DNA of 34,180 nucleotides from NCBI GenBank assembly GCA_019873685.1, contig JAIOAT010000041.1, forward strand, positions 1-34,180. Direction: 5' to 3'. Shown piece by piece: positions 11,532 through 16,677 of the stretch. Position numbers and translations under genes: made by a program. The DNA comes from Chloroflexota bacterium. GTDB lineage: Bacteria > Chloroflexota > Anaerolineae > Aggregatilineales > Ch27. The number at the start of each line of letters is the position of its first letter. Position 1 is the stretch's first letter. The notes beneath the pieces are model-generated. The model was given only the letters and a program-made list of their open reading frames with translations. It had not been told where the DNA came from and ran no database searches.

Positions 11532-11882
11532 CTAGCGCCGGAGGTATTCGCGCGCCTCGGCGCAGGCCATGCACAGCGGCGTATACGGGATCGCTTCCAG
11601 GCGAGCCAGGTCGATCTCCTGCCCGCAGTTGTCACAGCGGCCATAGGTGCCCGCCTCGAACTTGGCCAGGGCGTCCTCCACCAGTTGCAGGCGCTTCTCG
11701 CTGCTGGTGCGAATGGCCAGGTCCTTGGCCTGGTCAAAGGCCTGGGTGGCGTCGTCGGCCTGGTGGTTGGTGTACCCGGTGCCATCCAGAGCCAGGGTAT
11801 CCTTCAGGCTCTCCACGTTCTCCAGCAGATCGGCGCGCAGGGCTTCCAGGACAGGCTTCAGTTCTTCGGGGGACCGGATCAT
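11532..11882 (-). CDS. DksA/TraR-type C4 zinc-finger protein
   Basis: The 116-residue protein has a helical N-terminal region and a complete C4 zinc finger, CDNCGQEID followed after 17 residues by CMAC, with the family spacing and the ARLEAIPYTPLC segment. DksA/TraR proteins enter the RNA polymerase secondary channel with ppGpp; short versions such as this (like the Bacillus YteA/YocK group) are less well understood. The frame is open to 12050, but the ATG at 11882 has GGAGAGGGG upstream and matches where homology starts. It heads the operon with lspA. Confidence 0.87.
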   Translation of the reverse strand: MIRSPEELKPVLEALRADLLENVESLKDTLALDGTGYTNHQADDATQAFDQAKDLAIRTSSEKRLQLVEDALAKFEAGTYGRCDNCGQEIDLARLEAIPYTPLCMACAEAREYLRR

Positions 11883-12008: not shown

Positions 12009-12201
12009 GGCGGTTGACACATCGGACATCCCGGAGGAAAATCGTAGCATCGCATCGCTGTTAGAGGATGTGTCTGGATGGACGAAGGACCTGCCACGTC
12101 CGGTCTGGATGCTGGACCCAGACGCGGCGCAACAGACGATAACTTCATAACCAGGCCCCTGGCAGGCCGTCCCTCCGCCCGCGCTTAAACCTCCTCATCT
12201 A

Positions 12202-12261
12202 GCGGCTCCGGGATGTCTCCAGGGGCAAGTGAACATCCCTGGAGGTGTGACATGGAGCCGC
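12202..12261 (+). promoter_or_regulatory. Long RNA hairpin enclosing the mgtE ribosome-binding site and start codon
   Basis: Three stacked stems fold over the initiation region: GCGGCTCC/GGAGCCGC (12202-12209 with 12254-12261), ATGTC/GACAT (12213-12217 with 12249-12253) and TCCAGGG/CCCTGGA (12218-12224 with 12237-12243). The apical loop is 12 nt (12225-12236). That is 20 perfect pairs in 60 nt, with GGG bulged on one side and GGTGT on the other. The GGAGG Shine-Dalgarno (12241-12245) and the ATG (12252-12254) are inside the structure. Confidence 0.6.
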
Positions 12262-13601
12262 GAATCCTTGATTCCGTTCTCGATCAGGTTCGCCGCGCCC
12301 TGGAACAGGACGATGTGACCGGCGCCGTCAACATCATTGAGGCGCTGCGTCCTTCCGACCAGGCCGAGGTCTTTGCCGAGCTGGACGACGCGACCCAGAT
12401 CGCGCTCCTGCCGCGGCTGGACCCGGACGATTCGGCGGATATCCTGGAAAAGCTGGACGACGAAGAAGTCGCCGAACTGGCCACGGCGCTGCCCAGCGAG
12501 GCGTTGATCCGTATCGTCGACGAGATGGAGCCGGACGAGGCCGCCGACCTGCTGGGCGACATCCCTCAGGATAAGGCCCAGCGTGTGCTGGCCGGGCTGG
12601 AAGACCCGGAGGAAATCCATCCCCTGCTGCTGCACCCGGATGACAGCGCCGGCGGCCTGATGACCTCGGAATTCCTGGCCCTGCGCCGGCGGATGACCGC
12701 TGCCGAGGCCCTGGAGGCGCTGCGCGTCTGGAAGCCGGAGGCGGAGACGATCTACTACATGTTCGTGGTCGATGCAGTTGGACGCCTGTGCGGAGTCGTC
12801 GACCTGCGCCAGCTGGTGATGGCCGATCCAGGGACCCCCCTTGCTGACATCATGGACCCTGATGTGATCTCAGTCACGGTCGGGGCCGATCAGGAGGAGT
12901 GCGCCCGCCTGATGTCGCACTACGACCTGTTGGCCCTGCCCGTGATTGACCATGACCGTCGCCTGCTGGGCGTGGTCACGATCGATGATGTGGTTGATGT
13001 ACTGGAAGACGAGGCCACCGAGGACATCCAGCGGCTGGGCGGTTCGCAGCCGCTGGGGCGCTCCTACCTGGAAAGCAGCGTCTGGCTGGTCATGCGCAAG
13101 CGCATTGGCTGGCTGCTGCTGCTCTTCCTGACGGAAAGCCTGACTGGCACGGTGCTACGCCACTTCGAACAGGAACTGGAAGCAGCGGTGGCGCTGGCGT
13201 TCTTCGTCCCGCTGCTGATCGGCACCGGCGGCAATGCCGGTTCCCAGACTACCAGCACGATCATCCGCGCTCTGGCGGTAGGCGATATTGAACTGAAAGA
13301 TGCGCTCAAGTCGCTGTGGCACGAGCTGCGCGTCGGCCTGCTGCTGGGCCTGGGCATGGCCACGGCAGCCTACCTGAGGGCGCTGAGCTGGAACTCCACA
13401 CCCGATCTGGCGGCGACTGTCGCTCTGGCTATCATGACGATCGTGATCTGGGCTAACGCGCTGGGGGCGGTCCTGCCGCTGCTGGCAACGCGCCTGCGCA
13501 TCGATCCGACCGTGGTCTCCGGCCCGGTCATGAGCACCCTGGTTGACGCTACCGGCCTGTTCATTTACTTCACCATCGCCCGGTTGCTGATGGGCCTGTG
13601 A
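12252..13601 (+). CDS. mgtE: Magnesium transporter MgtE
   Basis: MgtE is a homodimeric Mg2+ channel gated by cytoplasmic Mg2+ binding. The 449-residue protein has an N-terminal helical MgtE_N superhelix (about 20-125, with repeated LDPDDSADILEKLDDEEVA-type turns), two CBS domains (about 135-255, rich in Asp/Glu), a plug helix and a C-terminal five-helix membrane domain with the pore block GTGGNAGSQTTS. Length is typical. The ATG at 12252 has a perfect GGAGGT five bases upstream. An in-frame ATG at 12213 lacks a ribosome-binding site. The initiation region lies inside a long hairpin, which points to translational control. Confidence 0.94.
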   Translation: MEPRILDSVLDQVRRALEQDDVTGAVNIIEALRPSDQAEVFAELDDATQIALLPRLDPDDSADILEKLDDEEVAELATALPSEALIRIVDEMEPDEAADLLGDIPQDKAQRVLAGLEDPEEIHPLLLHPDDSAGGLMTSEFLALRRRMTAAEALEALRVWKPEAETIYYMFVVDAVGRLCGVVDLRQLVMADPGTPLADIMDPDVISVTVGADQEECARLMSHYDLLALPVIDHDRRLLGVVTIDDVVDVLEDEATEDIQRLGGSQPLGRSYLESSVWLVMRKRIGWLLLLFLTESLTGTVLRHFEQELEAAVALAFFVPLLIGTGGNAGSQTTSTIIRALAVGDIELKDALKSLWHELRVGLLLGLGMATAAYLRALSWNSTPDLAATVALAIMTIVIWANALGAVLPLLATRLRIDPTVVSGPVMSTLVDATGLFIYFTIARLLMGL

Positions 13602-13638: not shown

Positions 13639-15369
13639 ATGTTGAGTCTTTTCTCCGGGATCTTCAAAGTTCAACAACCCACCGAGCGCGGCTTTGGCTG
13701 GGCCGATGTCATCGTGCTGGCGATCGTAATCAGCCTGATCTACGCAGGCGTCCGGCTGGCAATCGACACTCCCGACCAGATCGCGGGGCCGACAATCTCC
13801 CTGGCTCCGGAGGCGCTGCCCTACTACGCCATCCGCTCGGTAGGACGGATGGCGGCGGCTTATGCGCTCTCGCTGATCTTTGCGCTGGTGTACGGGCGCG
13901 TCGCCGCCTACCACCATCGAGCCGAGCAAATCCTGATGCCGCTGCTGGATGTCCTGCAAAGCGTGCCCATTCTATCCTTCCTGCCGGTGGTATTGCTCAG
14001 CCTGAGCGCTGTGCTGCCGCAGGCCGCTGCCGCTGAACTGGCCTCGATCGTCCTGATCTTTACCAGCCAGGCCTGGAACCTGGTGTTCGTCTGGTATCAG
14101 TCGCTGACCACCATCCCGAACGAACTGAACGAAGCTTCAACCACCTTCCGCTTTGGCACCTGGCTGCGCTTTAGAACGCTGGAATTACCCTTTGCAGCGA
14201 TCGGCCTGCTGTGGAACAGCATGATGAGCTGGGCGGGCGGCTGGTTCTTCCTGATGGCCGCGGAAATCTTCACCGTTGGCGAGAAGGACTTCCGGCTGCC
14301 GGGGCTGGGAGCTTACCTGCAGGAAGCGGCCAACCAGCAGGACTACCGCGCCATCGCCTGGGGTGTCGCGACCCTGCTGCTGGTGATCATTCTGCTGGAT
14401 CAACTGGTCTGGCGCCCCCTGCTGGCCTGGGCCGACCGCTTCAAGCTGGAGATGGTGGAAAGCGACAACCCGCCAACCTCGTGGTTCTACAACTTGCTGC
14501 AATCGACGCGGATTACCACCTGGCTGGGGCAGCGCGTCTACCGCCCGATCAGCGAGGCGCTGGATATGGCGCTGGGGCGCTTTGGCCAGCCGGCCACAAA
14601 CCCGGAGGCAACTGTCCGCCAGCGACGACCCTGGCCCGCCTATTTGCTGGCGCTGGCCCTGGGCCTGGCGGTGGTCTATGGCCTGGAACAGGCCGGGGAG
14701 CTACTGGCGCAGGTTCCTGCCAGCCAGTGGATGGAGATTGCTCTGGGGGTAGCAACCACCCTGGCGCGGGTCCTGATCGCGCTCGGCATCGCCCTGGCGT
14801 GGACGATCCCCGTCGGCGTGCTGATCGGCACCAAGCCACGTGCAGCGGCGGTACTGCAACCAATCGTCCAGATCGCGGCGTCCGTGCCCGCTACGGCGCT
14901 GTTCCCGGTGCTGTTGCTCTTCCTGCTCCAGCAGCCGGGTGGGCTGAACATCGCCGCTGTTATGCTGATGCTTATGGGCACTCAGTGGTACCTGCTATTC
15001 AATATTATCGCCGGGGCCACAGCCATCCCGCAGGACCTCAAGTTCACCACCACCTTGCTGGGGCTGCATCGCCTGGAGCGCTGGCGCACACTGATCCTGC
15101 CCGCGTTGTTCCCGTATATCATCACCGGGGCGATCACAGCCAGCGGCGGGGCGTGGAACGCCAGCATTGTGGCGGAGCACTTCCACTTCGGTGGGGAGAC
15201 CCACCACGTCACCGGCATCGGCGCGTTGATTGCCGCTGCTACCGCCAGCGGCGACTTCCCCCTTCTGCTGGCAGCGACTCTGAGCATGATCCTGGTTGTC
15301 GTGTTGATCAATCGCCTGTTCTGGCGTCGGCTCTATCGCCGCGCTGAAGAGCAGTTCCGAATGGAGTAA
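13639..15369 (+). CDS. Fused double ABC transporter permease, NitT/TauT type
   Basis: The 576-residue protein contains two permease domains in one chain. The first is about 70-275, with the EAA-loop-like segment NELNEASTTFRFGTWLRFRTLELP. The second is about 330-565, with PQDLKFTTTLLGLHRLERWRTLILPALFPY. Each domain has about six membrane segments. A polar linker (about 275-325) separates them. This organisation is that of inner-membrane components for nitrate, sulfonate, taurine or related importers, in which two identical permeases usually dimerise; here both are fused. GGGAG precedes the ATG. The ATPase starts three bases after the stop. No substrate-binding protein lies in the window. Confidence 0.87.
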   Translation: MLSLFSGIFKVQQPTERGFGWADVIVLAIVISLIYAGVRLAIDTPDQIAGPTISLAPEALPYYAIRSVGRMAAAYALSLIFALVYGRVAAYHHRAEQILMPLLDVLQSVPILSFLPVVLLSLSAVLPQAAAAELASIVLIFTSQAWNLVFVWYQSLTTIPNELNEASTTFRFGTWLRFRTLELPFAAIGLLWNSMMSWAGGWFFLMAAEIFTVGEKDFRLPGLGAYLQEAANQQDYRAIAWGVATLLLVIILLDQLVWRPLLAWADRFKLEMVESDNPPTSWFYNLLQSTRITTWLGQRVYRPISEALDMALGRFGQPATNPEATVRQRRPWPAYLLALALGLAVVYGLEQAGELLAQVPASQWMEIALGVATTLARVLIALGIALAWTIPVGVLIGTKPRAAAVLQPIVQIAASVPATALFPVLLLFLLQQPGGLNIAAVMLMLMGTQWYLLFNIIAGATAIPQDLKFTTTLLGLHRLERWRTLILPALFPYIITGAITASGGAWNASIVAEHFHFGGETHHVTGIGALIAAATASGDFPLLLAATLSMILVVVLINRLFWRRLYRRAEEQFRME

Positions 15370-15372
15370 GCC

Positions 15373-16677
15373 ATGAAGAACGCACACCTGCTGGAACTCA
15401 GGGGAGTCACCCAGAAGTATGGCCGGGGCGAACGGCGCTTTACCGCGGTCGAAAAGGTCAATCTGACCATCGATGAGGGCGAGTTTGTGGCTCTGCTCGG
15501 CCCCTCAGGGTGCGGCAAGAGCACCCTGCTGCGCATCATCACCGGCCTGAATCAGCCCACCGAAGGTCTGGTGATCTACCGCGGCCAGCCGTTGACCGGC
15601 GTCAACCCGCACGCGACAATCGTCTTCCAGACCTTCGCCCTGTTCCCCTGGCTGACCGTCCAGCAGAATGTCGAGGTAGCCCTCAAAGCGCGGGGGATGC
15701 CCGCGCAGCTGCGCACAGTGCGGGCGATCGAATTGCTGGATCTGGTCGGTCTGGATGGCTTCGAAACTGCCTTCCCGCGCGAGCTTTCCGGCGGGATGCG
15801 GCAGAAGGTCGGCTTTGCGCGGGCGATGGCCGTGGAGCCGGAACTGCTGTGCCTGGATGAAGCTTTCTCCGCACTGGATGTGCTCAGCGCCGAATCCCTG
15901 CGCGGCGAATTGCTGGAGTTGTGGACCAGCGGATCCATCCCGACCAAAGCGATCCTGATGGTCACCCATAATATTGAAGAAGCCGTACTGATGGCCGACC
16001 GGGTGGTGGTGATGGACAAACAGCCAGGCCGCGTCATCGCCGACCAGAAGATCACGCTGCCCCATCCCCGCCAGCGCAAGTCGCCCCAGTTCCTGGAACT
16101 GCTCGATCGGGTCTACGCGCAGCTGGCCGGGCAAACCCAGCCGGAGTACATCGAGCTGGGCAGCGCGCCGGGCGAAGCCGGGCGCACCCGCGCCCTGCCG
16201 GATGTGTCGGTGAGCGAGCTGGCCGGGCTGCTGGAATTCCTGGACGAGATGCCCGGCAACCGTACCGACGTGTACCGGCTGGAACAGGAACTGAACCTGG
16301 GCACGGATCCGGTGCTCGCGCTGACCGAGGCCGCCGAACTGCTGGGCTTTGCCACCATCGCCAAAGGCGATATTGCCCTGACGCCACTGGGCGAAACCTT
16401 TGCCGAAGCCAGCATCCTGGCCCGCAAGGAAATCCTGGCCACGCGCATCCGTCGTTTGCCCATGTTCAGGTGGCTGCTGGCCATGCTGGACGCCGCCGAT
16501 AAGGGGCAGCTTGACCGTGACGTTGTCCGGTTGGCGCTGGAACTGGAATTCTCGCCGGAGGAAGCCGCCCGTCAGGTTGACCTGGCGATTCAGTGGGGCC
16601 GTTACGCCGAACTGCTGGCCTACGACGACAACACCGAGACGATCTTCCGCGAACCCGCGGAGGTTGCCGCTGGCTAA
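15373..16677 (+). CDS. ABC transporter ATPase with C-terminal AAA-associated domain
   Basis: The 434-residue protein has a standard NitT/TauT-type ATPase domain: Walker A GPSGCGKST (43-51), Q-loop FQTFALFPW (about 85-93), signature LSGGMRQ (138-144), Walker B LLCLDEAF (158-165) and H-loop His199. The C-terminal part (about 265-425) matches the AAA-associated winged-helix-like domain (AAA_assoc_C) known from ATPases paired with fused permeases of this type. It would energise the permease encoded directly upstream. The substrate is unknown. Confidence 0.9.
   Translation: MKNAHLLELRGVTQKYGRGERRFTAVEKVNLTIDEGEFVALLGPSGCGKSTLLRIITGLNQPTEGLVIYRGQPLTGVNPHATIVFQTFALFPWLTVQQNVEVALKARGMPAQLRTVRAIELLDLVGLDGFETAFPRELSGGMRQKVGFARAMAVEPELLCLDEAFSALDVLSAESLRGELLELWTSGSIPTKAILMVTHNIEEAVLMADRVVVMDKQPGRVIADQKITLPHPRQRKSPQFLELLDRVYAQLAGQTQPEYIELGSAPGEAGRTRALPDVSVSELAGLLEFLDEMPGNRTDVYRLEQELNLGTDPVLALTEAAELLGFATIAKGDIALTPLGETFAEASILARKEILATRIRRLPMFRWLLAMLDAADKGQLDRDVVRLALELEFSPEEAARQVDLAIQWGRYAELLAYDDNTETIFREPAEVAAG

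Follow-up and report, generated by a model that had tools for sequence, protein, structure and literature searches.

A conserved leader with an acidic upstream ORF precedes mgtE in Anaerolineae and probably acts as a translational attenuator

In a genome of the class Anaerolineae (Chloroflexota), the translation start of mgtE is enclosed in a long RNA hairpin, which raises the question of what this structure does and whether it acts alone. The gene is carried by contig JAIOAT010000041.1 of assembly GCA_019873685.1, in a window, i.e., the whole stretch of DNA that was analysed, of 34,180 nucleotides. It occupies positions 12252 to 13601 of the + strand and encodes a protein of 449 amino acids with the Pfam domains MgtE_N, CBS and MgtE. 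An earlier note had seen the Shine-Dalgarno sequence (SD) and the start codon of mgtE inside a hairpin of 20 bp and had proposed a compact Mg2+- or temperature-sensitive translational switch. Our analysis supports a translational switch at mgtE but not a compact one: the hairpin is the OFF half and the 3' end of a conserved control region of about 200 nt, which also contains an acidic upstream ORF (uORF) and a decoy sequence, both conserved and both located outside positions 12202 to 12261. We read the whole as a leader-peptide translational attenuator of mgtE, with Mg2+ and intrinsic ribosome destabilisation (IRD) as the sensor, and give this reading a probability of roughly 0.7.

Positions 12202 to 12261 fold as a single hairpin of -34.1 kcal/mol (z-score -4.35). 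The mean of 200 dinucleotide shuffles is -21.0 kcal/mol and none of them is as stable, which bears out the claim that the pairing exceeds chance. The hairpin comprises 22 bp in two runs, an outer one of 9 bp (12202-12210:12253-12261) and an inner one of 13 bp (12213-12225:12236-12248). The initial description of three perfect stems holds only in part. Pairing exists, but it includes some G-U pairs, and two of the stems that can be read by eye, GGGATGT (12210-12216):ACATCCC (12233-12239) and CTCCAGGG (12217-12224):CCCTGGAG (12237-12244), overlap and are mutually incompatible. The SD of mgtE, GGAGG (12241 to 12245, hereafter region 4), is wholly paired within the hairpin, and the T and the G of the ATG at 12252 sit in its outer stem. 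Across 44 related leaders, 95% of the cells of this hairpin (3:4) are paired and the G-A-G of the SD is invariant; the SD-sequestering hairpin is almost certainly conserved.

About 400 Anaerolineae genomes supplied mgtE homologues, whose upstream regions we read. The same leader stands ahead of mgtE in many families of the class, its parts coming in the order promoter, uORF starting with [AGT]TG-GAC/AAC-GA, hairpin inside the uORF, CTGCCAACCGAATAnnTAGCCCCCGG..GGCAG, CCTCCGGGG...CCGGAGGTG, and mgtE start. Of 56 leaders, 36 have a promoter matching at least 9 of 12 positions in the 130 nt that precede the uORF, where shuffling leads one to expect 3.5. An SD-like tetramer stands ahead of the uORF start in 36 of the 56. 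Most of the covariance-model matches (41 of 49) directly precede mgtE. Two matches from one genus (L156 in genome G115 and L157 in G178) are located upstream of a gene for a CorA-type Mg2+ transporter; in L156, the one case measurable, corA has its own SD and begins about 210 nt downstream, the SD hairpin lying about 200 nt before it, and the output of the leader may differ there. Three copies of the leader that no intact mgtE follows (L153, L155 and L158) look like degenerate remnants, and the weak matches L159 to L161 (E above 1e-4), which stand before unrelated genes, look like false positives. A phylum-wide scan returned one match outside the class, in another Chloroflexota class and again before mgtE. 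A second mgtE copy (L162, G337:C1:3738550-3740300) has the leader and one in-frame TGA.

This leader is matched at the gathering threshold by no Rfam family (release 15 as searched), and the sole match of a permissive scan is to a chance-level lncRNA model. The M-box (RF00380) likewise leads mgtE-type genes, but its covariance model has no match in the window, where neither sequence nor structure resembles it, in line with the first impression that the hairpin is unlike the M-box. M-boxes, searched for with B. subtilis as a positive control, are present in 27 of the 396 genomes that were also scanned for this leader and never in the same genome as it, for about 3 co-occurrences expected.

In the window, all the parts of the leader lie on the + strand. 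A sigma-70-type promoter, TTGACA-17-GAAAAT (12014 to 12042, 10/12 match), has its -10 element ending 35 nt upstream of the start of the uORF, and transcription is expected to begin at about 12049. A possible SD, AGAGGA (12063 to 12068), is found 9 nt before the ATG of the uORF. The latter has 36 codons (12078 to 12188; MDEGPATSGLDAGPRRGATDDNFITRPLAGRPSARA, beginning MDEGPATSGLDAGPRRG) and homologues in 56 leaders and in 10 independent covariance-model matches. Inside the uORF, folding predicts hairpin H1 (12102 to 12123), formed by GTCTGG/CCAGAC or GGTCTGG/CTGGACC, and the corresponding helix of our alignment (columns 66-71:74-79) covaries. Region 2, the decoy or anti-anti-SD (12155 to 12173), is identified by the duplex test, by covariation of 2:3 and by cross-species permutation. 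Folding, duplex tests and covariation define region 3, the anti-SD arm (12210 to 12226), which is common to the ON pairing with the decoy and to the OFF pairing with the SD. The 2:3 pairing of the window consists of 12155-12162:12219-12226, 12164-12167:12215-12218 and 12169-12173:12210-12214. Three further observations concern the surroundings. The promoter spacer and the 5' arm of the hairpin share a perfect 12-nt inverted repeat (12025-12036 / 12206-12217), kept in a leader of the same genus (L003) and puzzling because its first copy should be upstream of the transcript. Upstream of the mgtE promoter, a gene that carries a dksA/traR zinc finger runs in the divergent direction (11532 to 11882, - strand). 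Genes for an ABC transporter permease and ATPase (13639 to 16677, same strand) follow mgtE after 38 nt and may share its transcript.

What is conserved in the uORF is its charge pattern, acidic at the N-terminus and basic in the tail. Among 59 leader peptides, Asp and Glu make up 24% of residues 2-11 against 2.6% later, and the mean net charge is -1.7 in residues 2-11 and then +1.9. An acidic residue is found within amino acids 2-4 in 56 of the 59, for a background of 13%. At least two acidic residues occur in amino acids 2-10 in 86% of the leaders, compared with 8% of 8,527 background short ORFs; the uORF starts of the 56 leaders were first chosen by eye, a bias lessened by the 10 independent model matches, 9 of which have the same property. 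The pN/pS ratio over the first codons is 0.70 in frame, a modest value, and about 1.0 in the other frames or further on. The end of the uORF is also positioned: of 44 leaders, 33 have the stop, in one or the other of two reading frames, within 12 alignment columns at the decoy (6% by shuffling), and 41 have it inside the wider decoy region. The genus of the window departs from this, its stop coming after the decoy and 13 nt ahead of the hairpin.

Covariation was evaluated on an alignment of 44 leaders (A1) that was built without structural guidance. The helices H1, 1:2 and 3:4 display 61 double-change cells against 33 in shuffled controls. Of their cells, 77% are paired, against 36-46% when the partners are slid, and none of the slid versions approaches the pairing or the covariation score actually observed. 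The compensatory changes that the earlier note had proposed to look for in related genomes are thus seen, and the pairing is kept. The helix 2:3, between decoy and anti-SD arm, covaries too: an anti-SD CCGGGG goes with a decoy CCCCGG, CCAGAGG with CCTCTGG (L042), and CCGTGAG with CTCACGG (L010). Mean duplex z-scores against shuffled sequence over the 44 leaders are -2.5 for 2:3, -1.95 for 1:2 and -3.45 for 3:4. This duplex-shuffle test is a cleaner control than the permutation of decoys across species, in which each leader's own decoy pairs better than those of other species with a z-score of -7.9 to which base composition may contribute. The 1:2 helix is clear in most families and weak in the genus of the window. 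It is this comparison of aligned sequences that establishes the hairpin, the decoy and the uORF, together with their covariation. Two mutually exclusive structures, 2:3 and 3:4, are found at the SD of a Mg2+ transporter gene, and it is from them that we infer the control itself.

How could the choice between the two structures be made? At equilibrium, the OFF hairpin is favored in the full leader of most species whatever the ribosome position, so that equilibrium folding does not act as a switch and the ON state would have to be kinetic. For this reason, co-transcriptional folding was computed. Before the SD is made, the expected number of 2:3 pairs averages 7.7 if no ribosome is present, 7.9 if one sits at codon 6 and 8.1 if it is about seven codons short of the stop; once the ribosome is at the stop, the number drops to 1.2. 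Thus, completion of the uORF is predicted to favor OFF, and early loss or delay of the ribosome to favor ON. For the window, the prediction is that 2:3 forms as long as the growing transcript ends between 12225 and 12255, and the SD has a computed accessibility of 0.45-0.6 for the majority of early positions of the ribosome, against 0.1-0.2 when it is near the stop.

In the switch that we propose, region 3 would partner either the decoy (region 2) or the SD (region 4). A ribosome completing the uORF would pass or sit on the decoy, 3:4 would form and the mgtE SD would be hidden (OFF). Should ribosomes instead fall off or be held up within the first codons, the decoy would capture region 3 ahead of transcription of the SD, leaving mgtE open to translation (ON). 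The signal for early loss would most likely be IRD, in which acidic residues after the start loosen ribosomes at low Mg2+, so that mgtE would be turned on when Mg2+ is short. The weakest point of this model is the families with a strong 1:2 helix. In these, drop-off at an early stage would by itself allow 1:2 to form, and it is not obvious that it would result in ON; the model would require a ribosome to be held in the uORF.

The coupling of the attenuator to the uORF is very probable. We infer the sensor, Mg2+ and IRD, by analogy, and Mg2+ is probably sensed through ribosome destabilisation. It can also be imagined that the same attenuator answers another signal, pausing or drop-off in the uORF reporting EF-P/ABC-F activity, an amino acid, a tRNA or a general stress on translation. 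Indeed, the architecture suits any event that keeps ribosomes from the uORF stop, and residues 2-11 contain 21% Ser and 12% Pro. This reading is rather unlikely in our view: acidic charge is the strongest conserved feature, the uORFs contain no run of regulatory codons for a single amino acid as an amino-acid attenuator would, and the genes served, mgtE and corA, are those of Mg2+ transporters of two unrelated families, which supports Mg2+ as the signal.

The conserved covarying helices, together with a conserved loop of the AACCGAATA type, would also suit a riboswitch binding Mg2+ or another ligand, the uORF being incidental. Yet the stop of the uORF, in either of two frames, is part of this loop, the constraint on the N-terminal codons is frame-specific, and the leader has neither a visible compact aptamer core nor an Rfam match, all of which make a riboswitch improbable. 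A static repressive hairpin or an RNA thermometer, for its part, would account for a very strong hairpin across the SD and the start codon, but would act without any upstream partner. Here, a conserved decoy is found upstream, at a fixed place after the conserved uORF, and the anti-SD arm covaries with it. We reject the plain thermometer or stand-alone hairpin as highly improbable, because it leaves the decoy, the uORF and the position of its stop unexplained. Finally, a start of mgtE at ATG 12213, raised along with the hairpin and making the palindrome coding, can be dismissed: the frame is open from there, but the 13 additional codons are absent in relatives, whose mgtE start codon aligns with 12252 with an SD in front, so that the region is leader.

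By mechanism, the proposed attenuator is closest to mgtQ of Salmonella, which acts on mgtB, the gene of a P-type ATPase. Both have acidic codons right after the uORF start, a 2:3 pairing that frees the SD of the transporter gene, and an action on translation. The mgtQ-mgtB leader has an uORF of 8 amino acids with Asp2 and Glu5 and forms stem-loops 1:2 and 3:4 versus 2:3 (PMC8092293); it stands between genes, before mgtB, whereas the Anaerolineae leader belongs to the 5' leader of its own gene, that of the channel MgtE, and its uORF, usually 20-36 codons long, has a basic tail. In mgtL-mgtA of E. coli and Salmonella, the acidic nascent chain of the EPDP leader peptide destabilises ribosomes at low Mg2+ and mgtA is turned on (PMC11282234). 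Our uORFs are similar to mgtL in their early acidic (often Pro) residues and subsequent basic tail, and in that completion is predicted to give OFF and abortion ON. On the contrary, mgtL acts via Rho-dependent transcription termination, while the visible output of the Anaerolineae leader is SD sequestration. Asp or Glu near the start of a short uORF, as in mgtQ and mgtL, is precisely what the Anaerolineae leaders present; the relation is likely convergent, these peptides being too short and too diverged for a homology test. Two other Mg2+-related leaders can be compared. The 'mgtE motif' SRC-65-1 is a riboswitch candidate with a covarying structure, reported, as far as its description goes, only from Thioalkalivibrio (PMC11109978). 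Set side by side by description, it resembles our leader in having the mgtE SD and AUG at the base of a large stem, and differs from it in that the description gives no uORF. In M. tuberculosis, a conserved small uORF accompanies an M-box in a Mg2+-linked leader (PMC12810186) and is under M-box control, whereas the Anaerolineae leader has no M-box. As far as we found, similar logic is known from Salmonella, where mgtQ and mgtL attest to such a mechanism, with no case for Chloroflexota or for the MgtE family.

Unrelated acidic small uORFs, e.g., MDAGDSTGTTRGRRRRASIARF and MENGGRSSGRDSGDIGEPPEPLWVWSSLYR, are also observed before mgtE in Bacillota (L231, L235, L236, L228, L237, L217, L219 and L241). 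Their hosts are several members of the Oscillospiraceae and Lachnospiraceae; SD-like sites accompany them, no regulatory family of Rfam matches, and the first codons of three Oscillospiraceae uORFs are nearly identical. It is conceivable, on slightly less than even odds, that Mg2+ transporters are widely governed by acidic leader peptides whose effect on ribosome stability reports Mg2+, and that such control has evolved repeatedly, in Proteobacteria (mgtL, mgtQ), in Chloroflexota (mgtE, perhaps corA) and probably in Bacillota.

The Anaerolineae leader, absent from Rfam release 15 as searched, is a candidate class for this database. If our reading is true, Mg2+ would be sensed by the ribosome itself in a phylum distant from the enterics, on behalf of a very widespread family of Mg2+ channels, and the choice between 2:3 and 3:4 would follow the logic of Salmonella mgtQ. 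Destabilisation by the nascent chain would then be a general and convergent principle of Mg2+ sensing.
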